Shown: piece by piece, positions 1-26,308 of the stretch
Layout: every line of letters starts with the position of its first letter
How positions within the stretch are numbered: position 1 is the stretch's first letter
IMG/VR virus record: IMGVR_UViG_3300043536_000303
Span: 1 to 32,215 of that record
DNA length: 32,215 nucleotides
Strand: one strand, 5' to 3'
DNA from: a virus
Notes under the pieces: model-generated
What the model saw: the letters and a program-made list of their open reading frames with translations, nothing else
Databases searched by the model: none
Told to the model about the DNA's origin: nothing
Position numbers and translations under genes: made by a program

Positions 1-225
1 ATGGTGACACAGGTGAAAAGGCGTAAGCCAAAAAGGTTCACGGTCTCCGTCGAACCGAGTGAGTATCACCTGCTCATTCAGCTCGCGCAAGGGCAACACC
101 CTCGCGTGCCATTGCAATATGTGGTCCACTGCGCGATCATCCAGTACTTGCAACAAGAGACCGCGAAGCGAGGCGCGGTACAGTCCAGCGGCAACCGCCT
201 GGAGGACAACAGCATCCGTGAGTAA
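1..225 (+). CDS. Small ribbon-helix-helix-like protein (putative DNA-binding regulator)
   Basis: A 74-residue basic protein. After a Lys/Arg-rich N-terminus (KRRKPKRFTVSVEPSEYHLL) it shows one beta-strand-like segment followed by two predicted helices ending in IIQYLQQ, the pattern of Arc/MetJ ribbon-helix-helix repressors. RHH dimers bind DNA and often autoregulate short operons such as toxin-antitoxin or restriction-modification loci. Its stop overlaps the methyltransferase start within GTGAGTAA, so the two are probably translationally coupled. The ATG is the first base of the window, so an upstream extension or upstream genes cannot be excluded. The RHH call rests on pattern only; the tail from about residue 52 looks disordered. 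Confidence 0.55.
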   Translation: MVTQVKRRKPKRFTVSVEPSEYHLLIQLAQGQHPRVPLQYVVHCAIIQYLQQETAKRGAVQSSGNRLEDNSIRE

Positions 226-1537
226 GACGCCTCATATCCCAGCAATCTCTCTTTTCAGCGGGGCCATGGGCCTTGACCTAGGACTTGAAAAGGCAGGCTT
301 TAAGGTCCGTGTGACGGTGGAATGCAACAAGTGGGCGGTTGAAACGATCAAACGGAACCGCCCTGGCCTCGCCCGGATCGACGAAGAGATCGAGGGGGTG
401 AAGACCCGTCGGATATTGGAGAAGGCCAAGCTGAAACCTGGTGGAGACTTCATCGTCGTTGGCGGACCGGCGTGCCAGTCGTTCAGCACAGCGGGCCAGC
501 GGGGATCGGTCAGCGACCCGAGGGGTGACTTGTTCAAGGCGTTCCTGCGGGTGGTCAAGCAGGCACGCCCAAGGTTCTTTGTGATGGAAAACGTCCGTGG
601 CATCCTGTCAGCCGCGATACGACACCGTCCTCTGGCCAAGAGAGGTCCTGGAAATCCTCGGTTATCCGAGGATGAAGAACTCGGCTCGGCCTTGAAGTAC
701 ATCGTCAAGGAACTCAAGAAGACGGGCTACTATGTAACTTTCGATGTCCTCAACGCTGCGGACTTTGGAACACCGCAGACACGGGAACGCGTCATCTTCA
801 TCGGCAGCCGCGACTATGAGGCTATCTCTATGCCGTCTCCCACGCACGCCAAGGAACCTATCAACGGCCAGGCTCGGTGGGCGACTCTCCAGAACGCGCT
901 CGAGGGTCTGGATGTGGAGAAGCACGACTACCATGAGCTGACGCCGAGCAAAAAGAAGTACCTGAAAAGAGTGCCTGCGGGCGGCAACTGGCGCAACCTC
1001 TCGCGGAGGTTGCAGAAGAAAGCATTAGGCAAGGCATTCGTCTCATGGGGCGGACGCGTAGGCTTCTTCCGTCGCCTGGCTTGGGGCCGTCCGGCACCAG
1101 CGTTGACGACCAATCCAGATGGCAAGGCCACGATGCTCTGTCACCCCGACGAGGATCGGCCTTTGAGCGTCCAGGAGTATGCCGCGCTGCAGCAGTTCCC
1201 TAAAAGATGGAAGTTTGCTGGCTCGACTACTCAGAAGTACGTCCAGATCGGCAACGCCGTCCCCTTGGGGCTCGGGGAGGCCATTGGAAAGGCCATTTTG
1301 GCGGCGCGCGGCAAGCCTCTCCGATTAAAGCGCAAGAAAGGAATTGTCGTCTGCGCGAGGAAGGAACTGCTCGATAGCCTTGCGCAGTGCCCCCGTACAC
1401 GCCTGAACCCGCCACGCATGAGGGTGATCAAGGAATCAAGCGCCATCGCAACCTGGCGGGACGGCCGGGGTGTCCGGCGGAAGGACATCTTGGAACTGAT
1501 CGCCTCACCCGATGCTGTTAGCGACGAAGGCAAGTGA
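218..1537 (+). CDS. DNA (cytosine-5) methyltransferase, Dcm/M.HhaI type
   Basis: Transfers a methyl group from SAM to cytosine C5. The GTG start at 218 is chosen because GGAGG lies 12 bases upstream and protein homology begins there (MSKTPHIPAISLFSGAMGLD); the frame stays open back to 59 but reads nonsense. Motif I is SLFSGAMGLDLG (residues 11-22), motif IV is GGPACQSFS with nucleophile Cys86, motif VI is ENVR (124-127), motif VIII is QTRERV, and motifs IX and X are at RPLSVQEYAALQQFP and IGNAVP. The residue before the nucleophile is Ala instead of the near-universal Pro of PCQ. At 439 residues it has normal length. It is followed by a DNA glycosylase gene, an arrangement known from 5mC restriction-modification loci where deaminated 5mC (T:G) must be repaired. 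It is probably the modification arm of the island. Confidence 0.93.
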   Translation: MSKTPHIPAISLFSGAMGLDLGLEKAGFKVRVTVECNKWAVETIKRNRPGLARIDEEIEGVKTRRILEKAKLKPGGDFIVVGGPACQSFSTAGQRGSVSDPRGDLFKAFLRVVKQARPRFFVMENVRGILSAAIRHRPLAKRGPGNPRLSEDEELGSALKYIVKELKKTGYYVTFDVLNAADFGTPQTRERVIFIGSRDYEAISMPSPTHAKEPINGQARWATLQNALEGLDVEKHDYHELTPSKKKYLKRVPAGGNWRNLSRRLQKKALGKAFVSWGGRVGFFRRLAWGRPAPALTTNPDGKATMLCHPDEDRPLSVQEYAALQQFPKRWKFAGSTTQKYVQIGNAVPLGLGEAIGKAILAARGKPLRLKRKKGIVVCARKELLDSLAQCPRTRLNPPRMRVIKESSAIATWRDGRGVRRKDILELIASPDAVSDEGK

Positions 1538-4787: not shown

Positions 4788-6572
4788 ATGACCCCGACGC
4801 GTCACGCGGTGCTCACCGCCGATGTGCGGGTGTCGGAGACCTTCGACAGAGTGCTCGTAGTGCCACGGGCAGCGGAGGAGGGTCACCACCTGCTCGGCCT
4901 GCTCCGTGAGCAACTTCCGGGCGTACACTTGCGGCGCTGCGCTGACGGCGCGAGCGCTCCTGCGCACGAAGCCGGGATCCTGCTGGACGTAGGCAAGACG
5001 GCTGGGCTGGAGTTGCGATGGACTGAGGAGGCGCGCCTGTTCGCTGAGAACCGTCGGCGCGCACGGCAGGTCCACGGAGACTTGCTGGCGCAGGTGGGAG
5101 CGATCCTGGCCGGAGGCAAGGACGAGGCACGGAGGCGGCTGATCGGCGTGGGAGGACTGAATGTCCTCGACGACCACCAATGGGTCAATGTGGCCGTCAT
5201 GACCGTGCCGGACAGTTATGGAGCTTGCATCTTCGATGAACAAGGCTCTGGCAAGACCGTGACGTTCATCTTCGGACATGATGTGCTGGTGTCTCGTGAC
5301 CAGGTGGACTTCGCGCTGATCGTCGCGCCCAAGAGCATGGTCAGCGAATGGCCATGTGACTATGAACGGTTCAAGCACGACCTCTACAAGGTGCGCGTCG
5401 TGGCTGGTTCGCGGAAGGAGAAAGGCGCTGCTATCGGTTCGGGTGCCGACGTCCTCGTGACGAACTTCGAGACGGCAGTTTCGATGGAGGCCGAACTACG
5501 CGCACTGTTGCGCCGTTACCGGGGCCGGTGCGTGCTGGTGGTAGACGAATCGTTCTTCATCAAGAACCTCGATGCCAAACGCACGCGCGCCCTGCGGCGA
5601 CTGCGCGAGTGGTGCGGGCGCGCCTTTGTGCTCTGCGGTACACCGGCGCCGAACGCTCCCGACGACCTCGTCCAGCAGTTCAGCATCGTAGACTTCGGAC
5701 TAACGTTCGAGGGGGCGGCTCTGCCCGAGGACCGCGACAAGGCGCGGCAGGTGGTCCAAGAGGCCATTGAACAGCGCGGCGTCTTCGTGCGCCACTTGAA
5801 GTCTGCGGTGCTGCCGAACCTGCCGTCCAAGAGGTTCCAACGTGTGATGCTGGCTCTCGAACCCCAGCAGCAGAGGCTTTATGCCGGAGCATTGAGCGAC
5901 TTGATCGTGGACCTGCGCGCGGCGGACGACAGTGCATTCCGGCGGCGCTTGGGGTCGTTCCTCGCGCGACGGAGCGCGCTGACCCAGATATGCTCTAACC
6001 CCGCTTCTGTGGTCGAGGACTACGCCGAAGTGCCCGCGAAGTTGAAGGCGCTCGACACGCTCCTGGAGGAACTGATCTGCCGGCGGAAAGAGAAGGTCGT
6101 CCTCTGGTCCTTCTACACCGCCTCGATACAAGCCATCGTTGACCGGTACTGCGCCTACGGCCCGATCCGCTATGACGGCACCGTCTCCGATGTGAGTGCC
6201 CGTCGAGAGGGTGTGCGCCAGTTCCAGGAAGACGACCAAGCCATGCTGTTCGTGGCCAACCCAGCGGCCGCCGGGGCGGGGCTTAACTTGCACCGCGCCA
6301 GGTTCGCCATCTACGAGTCCATGTCGAACCAGGCAGCACACTATTTACAGAGCCTCGACCGTATCCACCGACGAGGCCAGACGCGCGACGTGGAGTATTT
6401 GGTGCTCCTGTGCAACGCGACGATTGAGGTAGACGAGTACGAGCGCCTGGTCAACAAGGAGCAGGCTGCCCAGCAACTGCTGGGTGATGTGGTTGAACCA
6501 CCTGTGACCCGTCAGAGCATGTTGCAGGAGGCGATCACCTGCATCCGGCGTATTGGAGAGAGGGTGCCATGA
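4788..6572 (+). CDS. SWI2/SNF2-family ATPase (superfamily 2 helicase-like)
   Basis: An ATP-driven dsDNA translocase. The ATG at 4788 is preferred (GAGG 10 bases upstream); a GTG at 4782 in the same frame would overlap the ParB stop. In order the 594-residue protein shows motif I DEQGSGKT (about 150-157), motif Ia IVAPKSM, motif II VDES (DEAH/DEGH variant, about 244), motif III GTPAPN, and in the second RecA lobe motif V GAGLNLH and motif VI SLDRIHRRGQ with its arginine fingers. These define SNF2 ATPases. An N-terminal region of about 120 residues matches nothing I recognise. SNF2 proteins occur in DISARM (DrmD) and other anti-phage systems, but no DrmA, DrmB or DrmC is seen here. The stop overlaps the next gene (ATGA), so it is tightly coupled to the putative nuclease. 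Confidence 0.9.
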   Translation: MTPTRHAVLTADVRVSETFDRVLVVPRAAEEGHHLLGLLREQLPGVHLRRCADGASAPAHEAGILLDVGKTAGLELRWTEEARLFAENRRRARQVHGDLLAQVGAILAGGKDEARRRLIGVGGLNVLDDHQWVNVAVMTVPDSYGACIFDEQGSGKTVTFIFGHDVLVSRDQVDFALIVAPKSMVSEWPCDYERFKHDLYKVRVVAGSRKEKGAAIGSGADVLVTNFETAVSMEAELRALLRRYRGRCVLVVDESFFIKNLDAKRTRALRRLREWCGRAFVLCGTPAPNAPDDLVQQFSIVDFGLTFEGAALPEDRDKARQVVQEAIEQRGVFVRHLKSAVLPNLPSKRFQRVMLALEPQQQRLYAGALSDLIVDLRAADDSAFRRRLGSFLARRSALTQICSNPASVVEDYAEVPAKLKALDTLLEELICRRKEKVVLWSFYTASIQAIVDRYCAYGPIRYDGTVSDVSARREGVRQFQEDDQAMLFVANPAAAGAGLNLHRARFAIYESMSNQAAHYLQSLDRIHRRGQTRDVEYLVLLCNATIEVDEYERLVNKEQAAQQLLGDVVEPPVTRQSMLQEAITCIRRIGERVP

Positions 6573-7836: not shown

Positions 7837-10743
7837 CTACGAAGGCCGTTGAAGGTTGAGTGCGAGCAACTTCTCACGAATCTCCTCGTCGGTCAGGCTG
7901 GGGCTCCAGCCGTAGGCGGCGAAGACGGCCTCGTCGAGCTTCTGGTGGGCCAGCTTGAGCCAGTCGGGGCGGGCGTTGTAGAGGTTCGTCAGCGTGCGTT
8001 TGGCGAGGAGCTTGGCGTTGGCTTCATCCTTCGGGACGAGGCGGTGGTAGCGCACGGTGCCGATGCCCTTGTCGTTCGGGTTCACCACGTATCGCGCCCA
8101 GGGGCCGTTGACCGAGCCTGGGAATTCCAGAATCTCCTCCTTCATCCAGTCAGCCGGATTGAGCCAGTTGTTGCGGAGCGCGTCCAGTTCCTTCGCCGCA
8201 TCGGCAACGGTCTTCTCCTGGTCCGGTGAGGGCTTCGGCAAAGGGAATGTCTCGAAGCAGGTCGTCGGCGTGTAACGGAACCCGCTCTCACGTTCGCGCA
8301 ACTGCGTCCCCTGCGCCCGCGCCCACACCTCATGTATCCGCGAATGCAAGACGCCGAAGAAGTAGTCGTCGGAACGGGCGAAGACTAATGTCTGCTGATT
8401 ACATAGGAACTCCTGGCCACGCCAAACGAAGATGCGATGTTTGGCAACTTCCGGCGTTGCGATAAATCTTTGAATTGTGGCAAGTGCCTCACGCAACTCA
8501 ACTCGCGGGCGGGCATATTGCCACCATTTCCCGCGATAATCGTCGCGTCGCTCTTGCCTTATGGGGAGAACATTCGTGTGGACATACTCGAAAGGGAGTT
8601 CGTATGGCGCGGCCTGTTCCCTCTCCATAAACCCGAAGTCTATTGTCCAGACCCGACGATCCGACTTTGTCAAATCAACGCCGCTATGGACCCTACGAAT
8701 GGCATCGGAGTTGGGCTTCGCATGGACGTTGCCGGATGCCGCAAGAAAAACAAGGGCTTGCGCTTCGGAAATGTCAAAAGGGGCCTTGGGCGATGGCCCC
8801 ATAAAACAGATGCCGTGGTTCTCTGCGAGCGTCAAAGCCTCGGTAACATCGACAGTTGTTGTCAGGTCAGGATTGATCGCGGCCACGGCTTTCCCATCCA
8901 GCAGACGTTCCTGCTGGTTGCCGTCATCAAACCCAATCATGGAAACGTGGACGTTGGCTCCGTCGAGAATCCATTCGCGGTCGCTCTCGGCAAAGAAAAT
9001 GCCGCCGGTTTTCTTGATTCGCTTGAGCACTTCGCGGTTCGCACCGCCACGAATGCCCTGTGTAGCGAGAAGCCCCGCCCGTTTGCAGCGGCCCTTCTCG
9101 ATTTGGTCGCGCGCCTTCTCAAACCAGTAACAGCAAAGATCGCTGAAGTTGGGAATGCGGCGACCGTAGGCGGCAAAAAGCTTTTCAACATACACGTCAC
9201 CGAGCGAACTGCGAAGCATTCCGCCACCCAGGAACGGCGGATTGCCGACGATGTAATCCACCTTCGGCCATTCCGGTTCCTTCGGATTGTTCGGGTCGCT
9301 CAGGTCAATGATGGCGTCCATGCACTTGAAGTTGTCAAGCTTGCGGAGGACCGGTTCGCCGACGTTGCCGAGGCCGTTGTCCCGCACCCATTGCAGGTAG
9401 CCGATCCACACCGTCATCTGCGCCAGCTCATAGGCGTAGGGGTTGACCTCAATGCCGTAGAGCTGCCACGGCCCGACCATCGGCAGGAACCCGCCCATAC
9501 CGTTGCGCGCGCCGTAGAGGACGACTTCCTTCTCCAGGTCCTTGAGCTTCTGTAACGTGACGTAGAGGAAGTTACCTGAGCCGCAGGCCGGGTCGAGCAC
9601 CTTTACGTTTGCCAATCGGTCCATGAGGAATCGGCGAACGAGCGCCTGGGCTTCAAGCCGCGCCTTGGCCTTGACGGAGGGTGCGACCGTTCTGCCTGCG
9701 TCGTTCGGCCCCGGCTTCTTCTTGCCGGTCGTCAGGAGGTCGTCGCAGGTCTGCCGAAGCTCCTCCCACTCCCGGCGCAAGGGCTGCATGACGACCGGCT
9801 CGACGAGGACTTCGATATCTTCGCGGCTGGTGTAATGGGCGCCGAGTTGCGAGCGTTTGTCCGGGTCCAGGCCACGCTCGAACAGCGTGCCGAAGATGCT
9901 GGGGTCCACGGCGCTCCAGTCGAGCGTGGAAATCTGCGCAATCCGCTCGATCTCCTCGGCCTCCATGTCGAGCACCGTGGCGTCGGAGAAGAGGTTGCCG
10001 TTGAAGTGAAGGATTTTGTGTTCCCCGAACAGCCCGCCGTCGGCCATCGCCTCGAAGAGTTGCGCCATGACCTTTCGGAAAAGGGCGGGGTCATGTTGAG
10101 AATTCTTCATGACGCGGCTGAAAAGGCCCCGGGGCAACAGGCCGACGTCCTCGGCGAAGAGGCAGAAGATCATCCGGTCTAGGAAGTGCGCCACATCGAG
10201 CGCCGGCAGGCCGCGCTTGCGCATGGACTGGGCAATCTCCGCAAGGTGCCGCGCCGCCTCGGTGGTGATGGACTGGATCGTGACGCCCGGCTTGAGCTTC
10301 TCCGGCTCGAAGAAGACGTTGCGCAGGAGGGCCAGGTTTTCTGGTTTGGCCAGATCGGCCAGCGCGATCTCGTATTTCACCGTGGGGGTGTTGGTGAAGT
10401 TCGTGCGGATGATGATCCGCTCCATATCGCAGACCACCATCAGCGGCGGGTTCTCGAGCGCCTGGGCATAACGCAGGAGTTGCTGGTAGGCCGCGTCGAG
10501 GTTCTTGTGCTTGCCCTTGTACTCCCAGCCGAAGAAGCCCTTCTTCCAGACATCGGCAAAGCCGTCGCCGCCGGTGTTCTTCTCCGCGCCGCGCTCGAAG
10601 GTAAAGGACTCGCCGGTCGGGTCCATCTCCACAGGCTCCGGGTGCCCCAGCAGCCGGCAGAGGCCGCAGAAGTGCTGCTGGCAGCCGGAGCGCTCAGTCA
10701 GGTCGGCTTTCTGCCAGATGGCGATGAATTCCGTAACCGTCAT
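7837..10743 (-). CDS. Single-chain restriction-modification enzyme, MmeI-like (type IIL/IIG)
   Basis: A 968-residue fused nuclease and adenine-N6 methyltransferase. The ATG at 10743 is preferred because AAGGGA lies just upstream and the frame before it is not protein-like. The N-terminal nuclease core is GFADVWKKGFFGWEYKGKHK, with Asp64, Glu74 and Lys76, the D-x9-E-x-K spacing of MmeI. A helical spacer follows, then motif X near HYTSRED (about 303), SAM motif I VLDPACGSGNF (382-392), and catalytic motif IV NPPF (501-504), which marks an N6-adenine methyltransferase. The last 350 residues hold the target-recognition region. Such enzymes cut and modify from the same target domain and need no separate methyltransferase. 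It is the second gene of an operon after the AlbA_2 protein (67 bases apart). All key motifs are intact. Confidence 0.9.
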   Translation of the reverse strand: MTVTEFIAIWQKADLTERSGCQQHFCGLCRLLGHPEPVEMDPTGESFTFERGAEKNTGGDGFADVWKKGFFGWEYKGKHKNLDAAYQQLLRYAQALENPPLMVVCDMERIIIRTNFTNTPTVKYEIALADLAKPENLALLRNVFFEPEKLKPGVTIQSITTEAARHLAEIAQSMRKRGLPALDVAHFLDRMIFCLFAEDVGLLPRGLFSRVMKNSQHDPALFRKVMAQLFEAMADGGLFGEHKILHFNGNLFSDATVLDMEAEEIERIAQISTLDWSAVDPSIFGTLFERGLDPDKRSQLGAHYTSREDIEVLVEPVVMQPLRREWEELRQTCDDLLTTGKKKPGPNDAGRTVAPSVKAKARLEAQALVRRFLMDRLANVKVLDPACGSGNFLYVTLQKLKDLEKEVVLYGARNGMGGFLPMVGPWQLYGIEVNPYAYELAQMTVWIGYLQWVRDNGLGNVGEPVLRKLDNFKCMDAIIDLSDPNNPKEPEWPKVDYIVGNPPFLGGGMLRSSLGDVYVEKLFAAYGRRIPNFSDLCCYWFEKARDQIEKGRCKRAGLLATQGIRGGANREVLKRIKKTGGIFFAESDREWILDGANVHVSMIGFDDGNQQERLLDGKAVAAINPDLTTTVDVTEALTLAENHGICFMGPSPKAPFDISEAQALVFLAASGNVHAKPNSDAIRRVHSGVDLTKSDRRVWTIDFGFMEREQAAPYELPFEYVHTNVLPIRQERRDDYRGKWWQYARPRVELREALATIQRFIATPEVAKHRIFVWRGQEFLCNQQTLVFARSDDYFFGVLHSRIHEVWARAQGTQLRERESGFRYTPTTCFETFPLPKPSPDQEKTVADAAKELDALRNNWLNPADWMKEEILEFPGSVNGPWARYVVNPNDKGIGTVRYHRLVPKDEANAKLLAKRTLTNLYNARPDWLKLAHQKLDEAVFAAYGWSPSLTDEEIREKLLALNLQRPS

Positions 10744-10810
10744 TCCGCGTCCCTTCGGACTTACCTGCCTTCGCCACACCATTCCTTCAACGCCGGTTTA
10801 CCCGCTGCCA

Positions 10811-12265
10811 TCATCCGTTGCCGGCCCTCCTGAGAGCCTCTTCACCTGCGGAGGTCAGGCGGTATCGCTGCATGCGGCTGCGCGGCTTTTCGGGGATTGT
10901 GCGCTCCAGCCAGCCTTGTGCGAGCAGGGGCTGAAGATATGACCGCAGGAAGTGGACACGATCTTTCAGGCCAGCCGTACTTTGAAGGGTTTCAGCGCTG
11001 ACCACTTGTCTGGCAGCTTCCAGGACGGCCCCGACTTGTGGGGTGACTTGTGGGGCGACTTGTGTGGTGACTTGTTTGGCGGTTTGCTGCGCCCCGAGAA
11101 CGTTCACCTTGAAGGTCACCACCGCCGCTCCGGTGATCTCCTCAAACTTCGGCGGGGCGATCCGGGCCTGGCGGCACATCTCGATGACCCGGTTGGTCCC
11201 GCGCCCCCATTTCTCGATCAGGCCGGCGCGGTGAAAAATGTCCGCGATGATCGGATTGCGCTGAACAGACTGGTGGGACTTGCTGAGCTTGTCGGGCGTA
11301 ATCCCTGCCGGGTACGTTCCGGCGCTCCAAACCTCCACCCGGTCGTCGAAGATGGCGAGCGAGATCGCCCCGCCAGCGATGGAATAGTCGCGGTGGATCA
11401 GGGCGTTGACAAGTATCTCCCGCATGGCATCGGGCGGAATGAGGGGCGTGTCCACGCGTTGGAGCCTGCCCGGAACGATTTTGCCCGGAAGCGGGAAGTG
11501 CCTCTGACAGAAAAGTTGGGCCTCTTCCAGCAGCTTGAACGCGGGCGCGCGAAGATTCCGCTGGTCGAGGAATTCCGTCTTGTCCGTCCCGCGAAAACGC
11601 GCCATGCGCAGCTCGCATTGAGGGTAATCGGGAAGGAACTCCTTTCCGAAGAGCACCACGGCGGCCTGAAGAATCTTGCCATCCCGGCGCAGTTTCAGTC
11701 GGTCGAGAACGTCAGCAAGCTTGGCGCCGACAGGGCCGACGAGGCGTCCCGCGGACTTGGCCGCCTCGACAATGCGAAAAACTTCGTCACGGTCAATGTC
11801 TCGGAGTTCGACGCCTTCAGCAGGCTCGTTCTCCCATCGGCGCTTCCCGTGGGCGCGGTCCAACAGGAGTTTCTCGTACTTGCCTTGCGGCATTCGGCGC
11901 GTCGTGCTGCCGACGCGTTCATAGGCGCGCCCTTCATAGGTGAATGGACCCGTGGTCAAGCTGGCATCGACCATGACCGCAATTACCTCGCGGCCAGTTT
12001 TCACCTTCACGCGCTGAATAGAAACATGGGCAGGAGGCTCAAAACGGTCGGCAGCCTGCGCGATGTCCTGGAGCGTCTGGTCGGAGACTTCTTGCCCTTC
12101 AATTATGCCGCCCGCTCGAACGCCGAAGAGCACGACGCCGCCAGGACCGTTCAGAAATGCGCAAAGCGTCTGCATGGCGTCCTTAATCTCGCCTGTCGTT
12201 CGCTTGAATTCCAGGCGATCCGACTCGCCGCGTGTCGCGAGGGTTTTCAGGTCGGTGAGCTTCAT
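10811..12265 (-). CDS. AlbA_2 (Schlafen-like) putative DNA-binding protein with RecG-like C-terminal region
   Basis: A 484-residue protein. The N-terminus carries the AlbA_2/Schlafen signature: ESDRLEFKRT, then a helix and FLNGPGGVVLFGVRAGGII (about residues 14-57). The middle part contains AMREILVNALIHRDYSIAGG and a segment GLIEKWGRGTNRVIEMC, shared with the HATPase_c_4 region of RecG-related putative transcriptional regulators. A short Gln/Val/Thr/Pro-rich repeat linker (TTQVAPQVTPQV, near 405) leads to a winged-helix-like C-terminus (LLAQGWLERTIPEKPRSRMQRYRLT). Proteins of this type are frequent in defence islands and next to restriction enzymes; their biochemical role is not settled. It is the first gene of a two-gene minus-strand operon with the MmeI-like enzyme and may regulate or assist it. 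I see no clear ribosome site at 12265. Confidence 0.82.
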   Translation of the reverse strand: MKLTDLKTLATRGESDRLEFKRTTGEIKDAMQTLCAFLNGPGGVVLFGVRAGGIIEGQEVSDQTLQDIAQAADRFEPPAHVSIQRVKVKTGREVIAVMVDASLTTGPFTYEGRAYERVGSTTRRMPQGKYEKLLLDRAHGKRRWENEPAEGVELRDIDRDEVFRIVEAAKSAGRLVGPVGAKLADVLDRLKLRRDGKILQAAVVLFGKEFLPDYPQCELRMARFRGTDKTEFLDQRNLRAPAFKLLEEAQLFCQRHFPLPGKIVPGRLQRVDTPLIPPDAMREILVNALIHRDYSIAGGAISLAIFDDRVEVWSAGTYPAGITPDKLSKSHQSVQRNPIIADIFHRAGLIEKWGRGTNRVIEMCRQARIAPPKFEEITGAAVVTFKVNVLGAQQTAKQVTTQVAPQVTPQVGAVLEAARQVVSAETLQSTAGLKDRVHFLRSYLQPLLAQGWLERTIPEKPRSRMQRYRLTSAGEEALRRAGNG

Positions 12266-17121: not shown

Positions 17122-17183
17122 CCTGAACGTGCAACCTCGTCCGTGGGAAGACACTCCTCCCACTGGGTTACTACCCGTTCAGG
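17122..17183 (-). promoter_or_regulatory. Structured leader with the shared ACGGGTAGTAAC core
   Basis: Between the sigma-like gene and the small ORF, the minus strand carries ACGGGTAGTAAC-N-CAGTGG (17178 to 17160), which recurs with one mismatch in the leader of the sigma-like gene at 22470-22488. The region can fold: outer arms CCTGAACG/CGTTCAGG (17122-17129 with 17176-17183) and inner arms GTGGGA/TCCCAC (17143-17148 with 17158-17163). It lies 47 bases before the AGGAGAG-led start at 17112. It may be a promoter read by the element's sigma-like factors, or an RNA control element. Confidence 0.42.
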
Positions 17184-17192
17184 TGCGTTCGT

Positions 17193-17735
17193 TCACGCCT
17201 GAGGGTCGTTTTCTCCGACGTACTCCCCAAGTCCACATTCGCGGAACTTGTTTCGAAGTCGTTTCACCGCCTTACAGAGGGCGGCCTTTGAACGCCCTGT
17301 GCGCCGGGCGATCTCGGCCTGGGTGCATCCTTCGGCGAGCGCCTGGCAGATCTCCTTCTGCACCGGCGTCAGCGTTGCCATGGCTTGCTGGACGTCGAGT
17401 TTCAGATCATGCGGCTCCGTGCGGCCGAGAGCAAGGGACGCCCTTTCCGTAAATATGATTTCCTCAAGTGACTCGGACTCATAGTCGCCTTGGCGGACTT
17501 TGCGCCGCCGGTCACGCTTGACCTTCATCAACTGGTGGTCAATGACCGCGATGACGAAAGTGCGTTCGTCCGCGTCGAGAGCGTTGGGATCGAACGGCGC
17601 TTTGACGAGTTCCGGGACGATGGTCTGTTCGAGGTCGGGAACCTCGTCGTTCCGGAAGTTGAACTTCCTTGCCCTGCTCCTGATGAGGTCAACCTTCCAT
17701 CGTGCGATGAGACTTCCATAGTCGTTGCGCTCCAC
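17193..17735 (-). CDS. Sigma-70-like factor, region-4 HTH type
   Basis: A 180-residue protein with GTG start (GAAAGG about 11 bases upstream). The N-terminal half (ARKFNFRNDEVPDLEQTIVPEL) resembles sigma region 2 of small phage-type sigma factors; an acidic linker follows, and residues 122-165 form a clear region 4: LTPVQKEICQALAEGCTQAE then IARRTGRSKAALCKAVKRLR. The C-terminus FRECGLGEYV is strikingly like FSEFGLGEYL of the protein at 22525-23208, so the two are probably paralogues. It lies downstream of the zinc-ribbon gene and upstream of the recombinase cassette, all on the minus strand, so it is well placed to control integration or excision genes. Direct evidence for that is lacking. 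Confidence 0.75.
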   Translation of the reverse strand: MERNDYGSLIARWKVDLIRSRARKFNFRNDEVPDLEQTIVPELVKAPFDPNALDADERTFVIAVIDHQLMKVKRDRRRKVRQGDYESESLEEIIFTERASLALGRTEPHDLKLDVQQAMATLTPVQKEICQALAEGCTQAEIARRTGRSKAALCKAVKRLRNKFRECGLGEYVGENDPQA

Positions 17736-18375: not shown

Positions 18376-19227
18376 TCAGCCGTTGTGAAACTCGACCGTG
18401 ATCCACGGGTTCAACCGGTATCCCGGACCGCCACTCATGATCACGTCCTGGTCTGCGCAGGAGATGCCGTCGCTCCGCAGCGCTTCCCGGATTCGCCTGC
18501 GGAGCGATTTCACGTAGCCAGCGACGTCGTTCTGTCCCTTCGGACAACGCAGCTCCCTTGCGACGGCGTTGCCGGTGTACGCCGCGTATTTGCCGTTCGT
18601 TCTCTTGGCCAGCAGTTCCAGCAATGGGCGGCTGAATTTCCCGCCTTTGGCCGTCAGGATCGTGCGACCAAGCAGTTCGACATGCTCCGGGTGAAAAATT
18701 AGTTTACCGCCTCTGAACGGCGTCAAGCCTGCGGGCTGGACAGAGGGTGCCTCCTGTTTGTGCGCCGCAGCGCCGGCGAGAATGGGGCACTCGCCCGGCG
18801 CGTGCCTGCAATGCTTGCCGAGCGCCTCTTTGATCTTGTCATCGAGCGTCTGATCGGGAGGCGACGGGAACGGCTTCCCCACGTAGTCAATGGCACCCTT
18901 CTTCATCATCTGCACAGCCAGAGCGTGGCCCTTGTTCCCGTGGCTGGTCATGACGATGACCTTCGGGCCGCAGCCATTGCTCGTGGCCGCAATACGCTCA
19001 AGAAGGTTTTCGCCGTTCTCAATGCGGGAGAAGCCGTTGGGTTTCAACGGGATTTCGAGATCGAGCAATACGTAGCAGAACGGCTTCGCTGCCAGCATCG
19101 CCTGCGCGTCCGCCTGAGTAGCCGCCCGTTCTGACACGTGCCCGAGCGATTCCACGCACGCCGCCACAATGCCTACGATCTGGTCGTCATCCTCAACGAT
19201 CAACGCGCGGTGCTTCACGTAGTTCAT
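18376..19227 (-). CDS. Two-component response regulator with winged-helix output domain
   Basis: A 283-residue protein. The receiver domain has the acidic pocket VEDDD (Glu12-Asp14), the phosphorylated Asp56 in YVLLDLEIP, the switch residue in VIVMTSHG and the conserved Lys in YVGKPF. After a linker of about 40 residues, the C-terminal domain (about 180-280) ends in SLRRRIREAL and GGPGYRLNP, the OmpR/PhoB winged-helix recognition helix and wing. It should bind DNA when phosphorylated. The ATG overlaps the histidine-kinase stop (ATGA), so kinase and regulator form a cognate pair. Its probable target is the repeat cluster just downstream (18279-18323). The receiver is longer than usual, with an inserted segment (PLKPNGFSRIENGENL). 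Confidence 0.9.
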   Translation of the reverse strand: MNYVKHRALIVEDDDQIVGIVAACVESLGHVSERAATQADAQAMLAAKPFCYVLLDLEIPLKPNGFSRIENGENLLERIAATSNGCGPKVIVMTSHGNKGHALAVQMMKKGAIDYVGKPFPSPPDQTLDDKIKEALGKHCRHAPGECPILAGAAAHKQEAPSVQPAGLTPFRGGKLIFHPEHVELLGRTILTAKGGKFSRPLLELLAKRTNGKYAAYTGNAVARELRCPKGQNDVAGYVKSLRRRIREALRSDGISCADQDVIMSGGPGYRLNPWITVEFHNG

Positions 19228-20369
19228 GGCTCCAATCGGTCTTCCTGTAGTCGCGGAAGCAGTATCGTCACTGTGCTGCCGCGGGCCGGGTTCGGTGTTA
19301 TGCTGATGGTCCCGCCGTGCGCCTCGACGATCTTGCGGGCGATGGGCAACCCGAATCCCGTTCCTCCCGTGTTCTTTTTCGTCGTCCTGAAAGGCGTGAA
19401 AGCGTCCTGCACGTCTTCCGGGGATAACCCTACGCCGTCGTCCCGGACGACAATCCCGATTTGCTTTTCGTCGGCAAGGGAAGTTTCGATCTCTATCTTT
19501 CCGCCTTTTTCGACGGCCTCGAAGGCGTTCTTGATTACCTTCGAAAGCGCCTGGATCATCTGGTGCCGAGACGCTTCCAGGAAGATGAACGCCGGGGTTC
19601 GGTTGGCGATCTCGACCTCCGCCAGACTTCTCCCTGTCGGCCTGATCTCGTCGTTGACCAGGTCGAGCGATTCCTTGACGATCTCGGCCAGGTTCTCTGA
19701 CCGGAACTCACACTCCAGCCTTTGAGCATAACCCTTCATGTCGGTCAGGATGCGCTCGAGGAACGCGGCGCGTTCGCGCGCTTTTTCGAGCAGTGCTCTG
19801 GATTCCCGGCTCGGCGTTGCTCCGGCCAACTGCTCCGCGAGGGAGTCCAGCGAACCTTTCAACGCCGTCAACACTCCCCGAAGCTCGTGAGTGGCCGTGC
19901 CGGCAAGGACCTCGAAGTACTTTTCTCCGATGCGGCGCGCCCGATCGGCCGCCGCCTGACCGTGCTTTCCGACGAACCACTCATACTCGTCGATAACCGC
20001 TTCCAGACGCCGCTGTCTCTCGGCGTCCGCGAGCGCAACATTTTTGCGCCGCGCGAGCGTGCGTTCAGCGGCGGTGCGCACGTACATGTTGGCGTCGAGC
20101 GAAAGCTTCGCCACGAGTCCGTCGAAAGCGCCGTCCTGAAGGTGAAGCAGTGACTCGGCGGCCGCCTGCCTCACTTCCCACTTCGCGTCGGTCGCCAGGA
20201 TTCCCAGGGCGCGCGCCCCGGCTGCATTCGCTTCCGGCCCGGCGGCCAGCCGCAGGCGCTCGCCGACCTCCCTGGCCAGCGTCACTCGTTCCGGCCACGA
20301 GAGTTCCGGCGCGCCTTCCAGGCGCTCCAGACTGCGGTGCAGATCGTCTCCGGCGTTCTGACTTTCCAT
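19224..20369 (-). CDS. Cytosolic histidine kinase with N-terminal HEAT-like repeats
   Basis: A 381-residue kinase without signal peptide or membrane segment. The ATG at 20369 overlaps the ATPase stop (TGATG). Residues 45-110 carry two HEAT-like repeats (LATDAKWEVRQAAAESLLHL and LDANMYVRTAAERTLARR). The HisKA domain contains THELRGVLTALKGSLDSL with the phospho-acceptor His161. The HATPase_c domain shows the N box (KVIKNAFEAV), G1 (RDDGVGL), the F box and G2 (GGTGFGLPIARKIVEAHGG). HEAT repeats are protein or nucleic-acid binding scaffolds; here they most likely replace a sensory domain and dock the co-encoded ATPase. All catalytic boxes are intact. Confidence 0.9.
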   Translation of the reverse strand: MESQNAGDDLHRSLERLEGAPELSWPERVTLAREVGERLRLAAGPEANAAGARALGILATDAKWEVRQAAAESLLHLQDGAFDGLVAKLSLDANMYVRTAAERTLARRKNVALADAERQRRLEAVIDEYEWFVGKHGQAAADRARRIGEKYFEVLAGTATHELRGVLTALKGSLDSLAEQLAGATPSRESRALLEKARERAAFLERILTDMKGYAQRLECEFRSENLAEIVKESLDLVNDEIRPTGRSLAEVEIANRTPAFIFLEASRHQMIQALSKVIKNAFEAVEKGGKIEIETSLADEKQIGIVVRDDGVGLSPEDVQDAFTPFRTTKKNTGGTGFGLPIARKIVEAHGGTISITPNPARGSTVTILLPRLQEDRLEP

Positions 20370-22267
20370 CAATGTCCGTACTTGCGCATTCTCATCTCGA
20401 ATGCTTCCTTCCCGCCTTCGAGAAGGGTCTCAACCTCGGCCTTGCACTCGTCCACCGTGCCTGAATGCTCCACCGTTCCTCTCCTGCCGGACGAGTCAAG
20501 GACGAACACTTTTTCCGCCTCGCCCAGCACGGGGATGTTCGGGTTGTGCGTGACAAAGATCAACTGCCGCGCACGCTTCACGTTCCTGACGTTCTGGACA
20601 ACAGTCTCGTAGATGAACCGGTTGTCGAGGTTGTCCTCGGGCTGGTCAATGAGGAGCGGACTTTCGCTCTCGAGCAGCAGGATCGGGAGTATCGTCGTGC
20701 ACTTCTGCCCGGTGGACAACGTCGCGGAGTCCTTGTAATCGCTGCCGTCGAGCAGCTCGATGCGGGGCAAGTCGAGGATTTCGGCCGTCTCCATCCGGAA
20801 GATATCCTGCGTGCCGGCAAGTTTGGCGACCACTTTTTGCGCCTGGTCGGAATTCAGCCCGCCGCGCTCCATCAGCGCGTCTTTGTCCATCTGGCGCACG
20901 GCCAGAGCAAAATCGGCGGGGATCATGCCCTTGACAACCTTCTCAGCCACCCGCGTCACCTGGACGCCGGAGTTTCGCAGCGCCTCCATAAGCTGGTCGG
21001 CATAGAGCTGCGGGTTACCAAACTGCTCCACGCTCACGCGGATCGTCGGCCCGAGGCGCGCCGTCAGGTCGTCGGCCACTTTCTTGCGCAGCGCGAACCG
21101 CGAGTCCCGCAGTTCGGAGACCTCGCGCATCATCTTCACGCGCGCCTCGGCCAGACCGCGCGCCTGAGTCTTCTTTGCTTCGAGCAGGCGCTTCTTTTCT
21201 ATCAGCTCGTTGCGGTGGCGTTCCAGGCGGGACCGCTCCGCGACGTGGACCTGGGTGACCTGATGGGCCTCGATGACGGCCCGAAACTCTTTCTCCTGTT
21301 CAGCGTGCGCCTCAAGGAGATTCGCGCCCAGTTCTTCGAAGCGTTCCAGGGTTCCGCCCACGTCTTCCGCCGCTTTGCCCAGAAGCGAGTCCACGCGGCG
21401 CGCGGACTCATCGCCGACCTGCCGGACTTTTGACAGCATCGCCTCGTTCGGGCCGGAGACGACCTCGGCGGGAAGGTGTTCGCCGACCTCGCGGCCGAGA
21501 ACGCCGGAGCAAGCCTCCAGACTCTCCCGGAATTCCTGAAACTTCCCGGCCAGCGACTGGATCGCCCGCTTTTGCCGGTCGCGCAGCGCCTTCAACTCGT
21601 GCTGCCGGTTGATCTTGTCCGCGTCGTCTCCCTGCGCTTGCGCGAGGCCCTTCAGCTTCTCCTCAACTGTGGGAAGCTCACCCAGCCCCTCCTGCAACTC
21701 GGCAACGTCGCGTTCGACGCGGAGCACTTCGGCCGCGTTGTCGGAGAGTTTGCGGTCCAACGCCTGCAACTTCGCCTCGATTTCGGCGACCTGGGGTTCA
21801 ATGAATGAGTCGATCAACACCAACTGGAAGCGGGGATTGTTGGCGATCCCCTCGATTTGGTTCTGGCTGTAGACGTCGGCCGAGAAGAATGCTCCCTGCC
21901 CCAGGGAGATGCCCGTCGTCTTTCCATCCATCGTCGAGACTTCCGGATCTTCGCCCAGCGTCCGGTTGACGACGTAGGAGAGTCCCTCCTTCGTTTCGAT
22001 GGTCAGCTGAATCCTGCCGCCGCCGAGGTTGTTGCGAACGAGGTTCTCGATGTCCCTCAGCATGAGCCGGTGGTCTTCACCGGACGGCAGCGCCGCGAGG
22101 GCGTATCGCACAAACTCGATGACGGTCGTTTTCCCTGTGCCGCGCCCGCCGATGAGGCAGTTCAAGCCGTCGCAAAAATCGAAACGGATGCCGTCCAGGA
22201 ACCCGCCGACGACCTCAAGGGACTTGAGCCGATGATGCCCCACCGGTTGCGCCACGCGACGTGCCAT
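20369..22267 (-). CDS. SMC/ABC-like ATPase with coiled coil
   Basis: A 632-residue ATPase starting at the ATG at 22267 (GGGAG 8 bases upstream); the open frame before it is not protein-like. Walker A is GGRGTGKT (40-47), a long coiled coil spans about 165-370, the ABC signature is LSTGQ (517-521), Walker B is LLIDQPEDNLDN (538-549), and VTHN (572-575) gives the switch His. This is the head and hairpin layout of RecN, SbcC and TrlF-type ATPases, which bind DNA ends or clamp DNA. No nuclease or toprim domain is present. As the first gene of a coupled operon with the HEAT kinase and response regulator, it is likely the sensor; a role in defence or prophage induction is inference. Confidence 0.88.
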   Translation of the reverse strand: MARRVAQPVGHHRLKSLEVVGGFLDGIRFDFCDGLNCLIGGRGTGKTTVIEFVRYALAALPSGEDHRLMLRDIENLVRNNLGGGRIQLTIETKEGLSYVVNRTLGEDPEVSTMDGKTTGISLGQGAFFSADVYSQNQIEGIANNPRFQLVLIDSFIEPQVAEIEAKLQALDRKLSDNAAEVLRVERDVAELQEGLGELPTVEEKLKGLAQAQGDDADKINRQHELKALRDRQKRAIQSLAGKFQEFRESLEACSGVLGREVGEHLPAEVVSGPNEAMLSKVRQVGDESARRVDSLLGKAAEDVGGTLERFEELGANLLEAHAEQEKEFRAVIEAHQVTQVHVAERSRLERHRNELIEKKRLLEAKKTQARGLAEARVKMMREVSELRDSRFALRKKVADDLTARLGPTIRVSVEQFGNPQLYADQLMEALRNSGVQVTRVAEKVVKGMIPADFALAVRQMDKDALMERGGLNSDQAQKVVAKLAGTQDIFRMETAEILDLPRIELLDGSDYKDSATLSTGQKCTTILPILLLESESPLLIDQPEDNLDNRFIYETVVQNVRNVKRARQLIFVTHNPNIPVLGEAEKVFVLDSSGRRGTVEHSGTVDECKAEVETLLEGGKEAFEMRMRKYGH

Positions 22268-22313
22268 TCTGTATCTCCCGCCAGTCCAGAAATCCGTCAA
22301 AGCCAGGGCGCCA

Positions 22314-22343
22314 ATTATAGCAATTCGGCCTTTTCCGCGCCAA
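22314..22343 (-). promoter_or_regulatory. Sigma-70-type promoter for the ATPase-kinase-regulator operon
   Basis: On the minus strand a perfect TATAAT (22319-22314) follows TTGGCG (22343-22338) with an 18-bp spacer. It lies about 47 bases before the ATPase ATG, in the 257-bp divergent gap shared with the sigma-like gene at 22525. It is the clearest housekeeping-type promoter I found in the window. Confidence 0.6.
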
Positions 22344-22469
22344 AGGCTCTCGTTTTGCTTTTAAGGCCGCATAGCGGACCTGAATCTCGTCGGTCGAGAC
22401 GCCCGTCCGCCTATTCTCCCAGCTCACCGACGGAAAAAAACGCACGCCCCCCTGAACGATTTCTCCCAG

Positions 22470-22488
22470 ACGGGTAGTAACACAGTGG
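22470..22488 (+). promoter_or_regulatory. Shared leader core ACGGGTAGTAAC upstream of the sigma-like gene
   Basis: ACGGGTAGTAAC-A-CAGTGG matches 18 of 19 positions with the minus-strand leader at 17178-17160. Here it lies 36 bases before the preferred GTG start; both copies are preceded by CCTGAACG and followed by an AGGAGAG ribosome site. A promoter or leader element common to the element's early and integration genes is the simplest reading. Confidence 0.4.
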
Positions 22489-24665: not shown

Positions 24666-25046
24666 ATGCAGGTTCTGATTCCCATCCGAACCTGGTCGGA
24701 GCCGAACCTGCGCGGCCACTGGGCAAAGCGCGCGCGCAGGGCGCGGGGGCAGCGAGAGGCCGCCCGGATTCTCGTCCGGGCGGCCCTCGCCGCGTCGGCC
24801 GGGAAACCGCCCCTGGAGGGAAACCTTCGACTGGCCATACGACTTACGCGCGTGGCAATGCGTCAGATGGATTCCGACAACCTCGCAGCGGGACTGAAGG
24901 CCGTCCGGGACGGAGTGTCGGATGCCCTTCAAATGAACGACGGCGACCGACGGCTTGACTGGCAATACGCCCAGCAGAAGGGCAAACGCGGCGAGTACGC
25001 CGTGCTTGTAACGATCCAAGAGGAAAGCGCATGCCCGATCCCTTGA
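24666..25046 (+). CDS. RusA-family Holliday junction resolvase
   Basis: A 126-residue endonuclease that cuts Holliday junctions. The ATG at 24666 is chosen because it directly follows the DUF669 stop and starts the conserved strand MQVLIPIRTWSEPNLRGHW; the frame is open to 24537 but reads as a shadow. The acidic centre is seen in MDSDNLAAGLKAVRDGVSDA, with Asp69, Asp71, Asn72, Lys78 and Asp82, and a later acidic pair near 92-94 (NDGD). This matches the RusA pattern D-x-DN-x5-K-x3-D. It overlaps the methyltransferase start by 16 bases. It would process branched phage replication or recombination intermediates. Confidence 0.85.
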   Translation: MQVLIPIRTWSEPNLRGHWAKRARRARGQREAARILVRAALAASAGKPPLEGNLRLAIRLTRVAMRQMDSDNLAAGLKAVRDGVSDALQMNDGDRRLDWQYAQQKGKRGEYAVLVTIQEESACPIP

Positions 25047-26308
25047 GGCTTGGCAGCTTGTTTCGCGGCATCGGCGGCATCGACAAGGGATTCGAGGACG
25101 CCGGGATCGAACCGCACTGGTCGGTGGAGATCGACCCGTCGTGCAACGCCGTCGCGCGCCGGCACTGGCCGCAGGTGCCCGTCGTGAAGGACGTCCGCGA
25201 AGCGGGGAAGCGCAACCTCGCGCCGGTAGACGTCATCGCCTTCGGATCTCCCTGCCAGGACTTGTCGCTGGCCGGGAAGCGTAAAGGACTGGAAGGAGAG
25301 CGCAGTGGACTGTTCTTCGAGGCAGGCCGGGTTATTCGAGAGCTGCGCCCGCAGCTCGCCGTCTGGGAGAACGTCCCCGGCGCGTTCAGCAGCTATACGC
25401 CAGCAGAGCAGCCGCCGGGCGAAATGGCGGCTGGAAGCGAATGGGAGGTGGAAGAGGAGAGCGATTTTGCGGCCGTCCTCGCTGAGATGGAGAAGTGCGG
25501 GGCGCTGGACGTCGGATGGAGAGTTCTGGACTCGCAGTGGTTCGGAGTGGCCCAGAGACGGCGCCGCATCATCCTTGTCGCGGATTTTGCAGCGAGACGC
25601 GCCGAAAAAATACTGGCTCTCTCCGAAAGCCTGCGCGGGCATCCTGCGCCGCGCCGAGAGCCGGGGCAAGCGGTTGCCGGCCCCCTTGAGAGCCGCCCTG
25701 GAGGCGGTGGCTTCCCAGGGACGGACGCCGCCGCCAGCGGGTTCCTCGTGTCTGACGTCGGCCCGACGCTCAAGGGCGGAAACGGCCCGAGCGGCCGCTG
25801 CGAACTCTCCGACGGAAACGGCGACGGCCTGATCGTTCAAGGTGTGCGCGAACCGGCAGAACGCGCCCGCCATGATGCCGTAGCCATGGCGGTCAGGATC
25901 GCCCAGACCGGCGCGAACGGCCACGGCGTCTCGGAAGACGTAAGCCATACGCTTGATGCGGCCAACGGGCAGGCAGTCGCATTTCAGCCGCGCTTCGCGC
26001 GCAACGGTCGCGGCGCACCCTCGGACGTCGCATATCCGCTGACCGCAGAAGCGGGAACGACGGGCAAAGGTGACAGTGGCAATGCCGTGCTCGTCCTGGC
26101 ATGGGGTGTTCGGAGATTAACGCCGACGGAATGCGAGCGGCTGCAGGGATTTCCGGACGGATGGACGGCCTGGGGAATCAACGAGGCAGGCGAGCGAATC
26201 GAGATATCCGACTCGGCGCGGTACCGGATGCTTGGAAACGCTGTGACGCGGACGGTTGCATCGTGGCTCGGAAAGCGCATTGTCGCAGTCCTGCGGGAGA
26301 CACGCTGA
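25031..26308 (+). CDS. Phage DNA (cytosine-5) methyltransferase
   Basis: A 425-residue 5mC methyltransferase. Motif I is GSLFRGIGGIDKGF (8-21), motif IV is FGSPCQDLS with nucleophile Cys75 in the normal Pro-Cys context, motif VI is WENVPGAF (112-119), motif VIII is AQRRRRIILVA, and motifs IX and X are RRLTPTECERLQGFPDGW and YRMLGNAVT. Between about residues 195 and 350 lies a long low-complexity Gly/Ala-rich target-recognition region typical of prophage Dcm enzymes. It differs strongly from the methyltransferase at 218-1537 and is not a duplicate. In phages such enzymes protect the viral genome from host restriction. The helicase gene abuts its stop. Confidence 0.93.
   Translation: MPDPLRLGSLFRGIGGIDKGFEDAGIEPHWSVEIDPSCNAVARRHWPQVPVVKDVREAGKRNLAPVDVIAFGSPCQDLSLAGKRKGLEGERSGLFFEAGRVIRELRPQLAVWENVPGAFSSYTPAEQPPGEMAAGSEWEVEEESDFAAVLAEMEKCGALDVGWRVLDSQWFGVAQRRRRIILVADFAARRAEKILALSESLRGHPAPRREPGQAVAGPLESRPGGGGFPGTDAAASGFLVSDVGPTLKGGNGPSGRCELSDGNGDGLIVQGVREPAERARHDAVAMAVRIAQTGANGHGVSEDVSHTLDAANGQAVAFQPRFARNGRGAPSDVAYPLTAEAGTTGKGDSGNAVLVLAWGVRRLTPTECERLQGFPDGWTAWGINEAGERIEISDSARYRMLGNAVTRTVASWLGKRIVAVLRETR

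Follow-up and report, generated by a model that had tools for sequence, protein, structure and literature searches.

A TrlF/Ppl-type ATPase without its PHP half shares a conserved operon with a histidine kinase and a response regulator: a putative signalling module of mobile elements

The three-gene operon and its proteins

The stretch of DNA analysed here (the window) comprises 32,215 bases of the IMG/VR virus record IMGVR_UViG_3300043536_000303. At positions 18376-22267, entirely on the minus strand, it carries an operon encoding an ABC ATPase, a histidine kinase and a response regulator, in that order. The principal features are:

20369..22267 (-): free-standing TrlF/Ppl-type ABC ATPase, 632 amino acids; ATG start, alternative TTG at 22300
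19224..20369 (-): HEAT-repeat histidine kinase, 381 amino acids from ATG; alternative TTG at 20372
18376..19227 (-): OmpR/PhoB-like response regulator, 283 amino acids; receiver at about 1-140, predicted winged helix at about 170-283
20028..20360 (-): HEAT adaptor of the kinase, about residues 5-115, from a 24-row alignment; helices 7-91 in the model

The ATPase and kinase genes meet in a TGATG stop/start overlap and the kinase and regulator genes in a 4-base ATGA overlap, confirming the three translationally coupled genes noticed in a preliminary description of the window. The same layout recurs in several bacterial phyla, and a module of ATPase, kinase and response regulator is strongly supported.

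The window ATPase had Pfam matches above cut-off to AAA_23 and AAA_21, and aligned with the TrlF profile NF045780 over profile positions 292-944 of 944 (E 3.6e-91). Its score of 307.3 bits was under the curated cut-off of 350 for that profile, and its 123.5 bits against the Ppl profile NF042955 were under the curated cut-off of 1000; its top PADLOC matches were Ppl (E 6.1e-23) and mad3 (E 1.3e-12). Positions 1 to about 290 of NF045780, which precede the ATPase, are by the family description the PHP domain of TrlF proteins. Pfam found no PHP domain in the window protein, whose alignment with NF045780 begins only at position 292. The ATPase half of TrlF is present together with its motifs, the residues of which were invariant in a 22-row alignment that included four extended ATPases. 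These matches identify the window protein as a TrlF/Ppl-family ATPase half that lacks its PHP half. Directly after the Walker B aspartate, 124 of 132 rows have Q and 3 have E, with 5 unread. ABC ATPases usually have a glutamate here, and its replacement by Q suggests slow hydrolysis and a binding or sensor role. The protein had been described as SMC-like, and a kinship of that kind was recovered, since the ATPase profile matched PDB chains of SMC and Rad50 proteins, the best of SMC at E 5.1e-13. This kinship is by profile only, and membership of SMC proper was rejected (SMC_N 22.8 bits versus a gathering cut-off of 40). With a PHP-less TrlF/Ppl-type ATPase in place of an SMC clamp, the closest comparison changes as well.

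The kinase matched HATPase_c (E 3.1e-25), with HEAT_2, HEAT and HisKA below their Pfam cut-offs. Among kinase homologues of the winged-helix class, Pfam (E<=0.01) recovered HATPase_c in 68/68, HEAT_2 in 60/68 and HisKA in 13/68, in agreement with the earlier naming of a HEAT-repeat histidine kinase. The hallmarks of HisKA-type kinases were present in the family: the phospho-acceptor H162 and N282 of the N box were each found in 92 of 93 kinases, and the G boxes held D311 (91/93), G339 and G341 (both 92/93). In the structural model (mean predicted local distance difference test score, pLDDT, 92.6), helices at 7-91 are followed by a long helix region at 96-183 holding H162 and then by the kinase core. 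The top PDB structure match, ZraS, covered the kinase core; nothing among the 50 matches listed bears on the HEAT part. PADLOC gave no match for this protein, a putatively soluble kinase without a classic sensor domain.

The HEAT adaptor has a family motif, DPKWEVR...VRxAAERAL, in the 24-row alignment. A search for the adaptor in 149 Planctomycetota genomes, with up to 26 candidates scored per genome, gave five strong matches (73.6-193.9 bits; next best 36.8 bits). Four belonged to ATPase operons already known, including one from a seed genome, and the fifth lay at a contig edge. This distribution of the strong matches places the adaptor within the module.

The response regulator matched Response_reg (E 4.2e-11, Pfam) and carried the receiver residues of OmpR/PhoB regulators. 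The phospho-acceptor D56 was found in 87 of 87 regulators, and K118 was invariant in the 59 rows without TCAD9 (67/87 over all rows). Pfam did not match Trans_reg_C in the window regulator and found it in 1 of 59 homologues; assorted helix-turn-helix (HTH) families were matched in part of the 59 non-TCAD9 regulators. The AlphaFold model of the regulator (mean pLDDT 89.5; predicted template modelling score, pTM, 0.59) has a loose linker at 156-164, and Foldseek aligned both domains, over about 275-284 columns, to MtrA, RpaA, CosR and KdpE (best E 8.6e-10). Whole-chain TM-scores against OmpR-family chains were low (0.34-0.41) and root-mean-square deviations high (16-19 Å), as expected if the two domains differ in their placement. 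TCAD9 was not found in the window regulator by Pfam. Of the 86 complete regulators, 35 were assigned by the winged-helix profile and 19 by the TCAD9 profile, leaving 32 unassigned.

Association with the kinase and exchange of partners

To keep the sample from favouring relatives of the window, we evaluated the co-occurrence of ATPase and kinase in 1,811 genomes, sampled evenly across the phyla to which seven seed genomes belong, with 3-6 first-look candidates scored per genome and, in one search, 30 of 41 matches turned into loci. After removal of 17 unscorable loci and 9 in seed genomes from a total of 102, the kinase lay directly downstream in 32 of 33 free-standing ATPases versus 0 of 43 N-terminally extended ones (Fisher p 1.2e-20, with kinship ignored and several genomes giving at least two copies). 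The conserved co-occurrence of the three families, suggested earlier as a check, was thus observed. Extended ATPases were mostly PHP-like at their start, some without its His motif and a few not typed.

Across plasmid, genome and viral-contig loci, the kinase accompanied 87 of the 98 free-standing ATPases that could be scored and 0 of the 28 extended ones, so that the ATPase was not found equally often without the kinase pair. This count leaves out 24 unscorable loci and 2 without an ATPase open reading frame (ORF), counts L072 among the free-standing ones despite the 151 additional residues of its longest ORF, and includes at least two viral loci that repeat genome loci (L092 of L015, the Chthoniobacter flavus Ellin428 locus, and L102 of L035). 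The underlying scans of genome and viral contigs covered the best 80 of 536 loci in one and 67 loci in the other, and copies of the window (L001, L008, L009, L090) were left out of the counts. Three of the 87 kinase-positive loci show no response regulator, because the contig ends there. Of 765 matching plasmid records, six were inspected, one of them chosen for its annotation: plasmids of K. pneumoniae, Caballeronia, Shinella and Leclercia encoded the ATPase, the kinase and a response regulator with a TCAD9/APH-like domain, and the other two matches were extended ATPases without the kinase. In 95 loci, the distance from the ATPase gene to the kinase gene ran from -26 to +21 bases; its lower limit follows from the start rule used. 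Pairwise distances of ATPase, HEAT adaptor, kinase core and receiver correlated with one another (r 0.62-0.80, 42 loci), which we read as co-inheritance, not contact. One genome (G014) held three free-standing ATPases of this kind.

What follows the ATPase is exchanged in some lineages. In some Acidobacteria (L059, L061, L062, L063) a SpoIIE/PP2C phosphatase takes the kinase's place, with E 5.3e-54 and 6e-52 in the two scanned by Pfam (L059, L061) and the other two assigned by likeness; the kinase is kept in other Acidobacteria (L050, L238). These phosphatases consist of a helical-looking N-terminal adaptor fused to the SpoIIE/PP2C domain. The N terminus of the L061 phosphatase matches that of the L068 kinase over residues 10-103 (BLASTP E 2e-9), pointing to a shared adaptor; this match stands apart from the HEAT claim. 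Four loci of Bacteroidota and one proteobacterial bin pair the ATPase with a TCAD9-like protein; profile comparison gave no support (E 0.13) for a degenerate receiver in the proteins that place TCAD9 directly beside the ATPase. In another locus (L002), the regulator-TCAD9 protein matched 48 plasmid records, 36 of them from Piscirickettsia salmonis, and the whole trio had three near matches in plasmids and none in 5,426 E. coli genomes.

On a quick ATPase tree, made without bootstrap and with long branches, free-standing ATPases form one 77-row set (Shimodaira-Hasegawa-like approximate likelihood-ratio test, SH-aLRT, 96), which also holds one long extended row (L127), and the distinction of PHP versus free-standing corresponds to two changes. 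At L168 (131-2791), a TrlF-like ATPase whose PHP-like part is seemingly without the His motif is followed by a protein whose sequence reads as Schlafen AlbA-like. The same holds for L077, a free-standing relative.

Upstream DNA and the surrounding element

Two further features lie upstream of the ATPase gene:

22314..22343 (-): promoter-like site TTGGCG-18-TATAAT, its -10 box preceded by TG
22451..22478 (-): 28-base element ACTACCCGT-N11-CGTTCAGG, a candidate operator upstream of the operon

The TG-extended site (22343-22314) was the one sigma-70-like site found where 0.6 were expected, which is not significant by count. L091, a locus whose ATPase is 65% identical to that of the window, has a TATAAT about 45 bases before the first ATG. 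The good promoter first proposed for the operon stands as a sigma-70-like site with a similarly placed TATAAT in a relative. The 28-base element sits between a divergent gene and the operon, and a copy with 2 mismatches is present on the other side of the operon at 17170-17197 (+), giving two window matches at <=3 mismatches against 0.01 expected. Two copies also lie upstream of the L091 trio (5741-5768, 5831-5858). Within the viral contigs, exact ACTACCCGT-N11-CGTTCAGG occurred in only two, that of L091 and that of a near-copy of the window.

The window also encodes a serine integrase, DUF2924, a sigma-like factor, a Sak4-like protein, SSB, a RadD-like helicase, an exonuclease, a primase and methylases, phage-like genes that bear out the proposed mobile element in this virus record. 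No virion structural gene was named among the 20 window ORFs scanned with Pfam. The same element holds an MmeI-like restriction-modification protein at 7837-10782 (-), a Schlafen/HATPase_c_4 protein at 10811-12265 (-) and two C5 methylases at 59-1537 (+) and 25031-26308 (+).

Among neighbours of the operons in other loci, the Pfam tally (125 of 274 proteins, 25 families listed in each scan) was led by recombinases, namely Resolvase with 5, Phage_integrase with 4 and Recombinase with 3 of the 125 proteins; restriction-modification genes were present singly. These neighbours fit mobile elements and are compatible with defence, without proving it. One BLAST group, named by reading as HTH/WYL-like regulators, occurs at L029, L032, L043, L047, L049, L108, L115, L116, L120 and L048. 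Its members lie up to 500 bases upstream of the ATPase in 9 of the 10 loci (L048 is further off) and on the opposite strand in 8.

Proposed signalling and alternative readings

The trio shares parts with several known systems. Ppl/TrlF proteins are homologous to the window ATPase over the length of the ATPase half and share its invariant residues, but there a PHP nuclease is fused to the ABC ATPase, whereas here PHP is absent and a kinase and regulator follow instead. Detocs likewise combines a histidine kinase with receiver proteins in an operon of the accessory genome; the module studied here adds an ABC ATPase, and the N-terminal domain of its kinase is HEAT. In Detocs the receiver protein bears a phosphorylase-type effector. 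We dropped Detocs membership, as Pfam found no phosphorylase domain in the window regulator or in four plasmid regulators and the kinase had no PADLOC match. The module does look different from Detocs in composition, as noted in the preliminary description. The kinase core resembles those of ZraS and CpxA and the regulator domains those of MtrA and KdpE, as in OmpR/PhoB pairs, which differ in having neither the HEAT adaptor in the kinase nor the ABC ATPase gene in front. TCAD domains link the plasmid lineage, where TCAD9 is the regulator output, with vWA-MoxR ternary conflict systems; the window regulator, unlike these, had no TCAD9 match.

Ppl is described in section 5 of PMC12904381 as a single-stranded DNA exonuclease gated by 3' ends and, at its PHP and NTPase domains, by depletion of nucleoside triphosphates (NTPs). 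A figure legend on predicted systems in PMC13092281 names HATPase and REC. The trio is not described in the available portions of PMC7159879, PMC7554251, PMC10910872, PMC12839542, PMC13092281, PMC12904381, PMC12137116 and PMC7824862. More generally, the search of open papers brought up no account of it; an ABC-ATPase survey (10.1093/nar/gkaa726), outside that scope, may mention it. We do not claim a first report.

We propose, with a probability of roughly 0.6, that the trio is a three-part signalling module of mobile elements in which the state of the ATPase is passed through the HEAT adaptor and a phosphorelay to transcription. At the level of sequence, gene order, overlaps, the phospho-acceptor His and Asp and the adaptor are conserved, association holds in both directions and outputs are exchanged. 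Since the ATPase is the constant part and later parts are exchanged, we place it at the input. A PHP-less TrlF/Ppl-type ATPase would sense abnormal DNA, a nucleotide state or both, and would pass its state to the HEAT domain of the kinase, which would serve as the docking site. By analogy with Ppl, candidate signals are NTP depletion and 3' ends, so the ligand may be DNA ends or the NTP level. The HEAT helices run, in the model, directly into the helix holding the phospho-acceptor, and the kinase would phosphorylate the OmpR-like regulator to switch transcription. In other lineages, an ATPase of this kind is paired with a kinase and a regulator-TCAD9 fusion, or with a PP2C-type phosphatase. 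The purpose may be defence or competition between mobile elements. The interpretation first offered for the window is partly retained: the three-family unit and the HEAT adaptor within it stand, and the ATPase as an SMC clamp does not. More tentative, and to our minds somewhat short of even odds, is a general scheme in which a constant ABC ATPase front end reading DNA ends or nucleotide level drives exchangeable phosphorylation outputs in place of the Ppl/TrlF nuclease, so that a phosphorelay inside the cell would detect foreign or damaged DNA.

Several observations weigh against this proposal. The kinase was absent in 11 of the 98 scorable free-standing ATPases. The partner is of phosphatase type in four of these (two scanned with Pfam) and of TCAD9 type in five (one scanned with Pfam); in L077, whose ATPase lies in a degenerate-PHP clade, it is the Schlafen-like protein, and L051 has no partner. 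In L225, the sole exception among the 33 in the phylum sample, the partner matches TCAD9 below threshold (E 0.0072). Presence versus absence of the kinase corresponds to seven changes on the ATPase tree, some of them from contig-edge rows. Pfam found HEAT neither in the five TCAD9-type kinases scanned nor in the phosphatases; in profile comparisons, window-type HEAT gave E 0.0023 with TCAD9-type N termini and a weak E 0.15 with the phosphatase/L068 set. Given these negative scans and weak comparisons, HEAT in TCAD9-type kinases and phosphatases was dropped, and we claim it for the winged-helix lineage only. Defence genes were a minority among neighbours, in a tally without a matched control, and no recurrent effector stood out next to winged-helix operons among the 25 largest BLAST groups.

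The main rival is a switch owned by the element itself, in which the ATPase reads DNA damage or replication state and the regulator controls induction, copy number or transfer, with no part in immunity. The window operon lies between the integrase region and the replication module, divergent from the sigma-like gene and with the shared 28-base element between the two. Recurrent neighbours, in BLAST groups named by reading and with some members that look like antisense frames, were recombinases (20 loci), sigma-like genes (14), AAA_24/Sak4-like genes (9) and DUF2924 (8). However, this phage context is partly selection, because many neighbour loci come from a viral collection; the DNA of the window trio had no match in 50,697 phage records, and the same ATPase clade is found on plasmids with a kinase-like TCAD9 output. 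We consider such a switch unlikely. Less probable still is a two-component pair that does the sensing and controls the ATPase as its effector or client, for example a DNA maintenance factor. Histidine kinases are usually inputs by family, and the HEAT domain could bind another ligand. The constancy of the ATPase among exchanged followers speaks against this arrangement, as does the effector nuclease carried on the ATPase chain in relatives such as Ppl, which puts the ATPase upstream of an output. It is common for unrelated genes to share a single stretch of mobile DNA, but the conserved order, the overlaps and the association in both directions refute a chance neighbourhood of the three genes.

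The signals that two-component systems are mostly known to read come from the envelope or are small molecules. The kinase of this module has no classic sensor domain; across several phyla and on mobile DNA, it is linked to an ATPase from the family of a defence nuclease gated by DNA ends and nucleotides. Because different outputs have been exchanged around one type of ATPase, the idea can be tested directly with few proteins. If the ATPase is the input, phosphotransfer would read out invading or broken DNA, giving a transcriptional and reversible response where its relative Ppl cuts.

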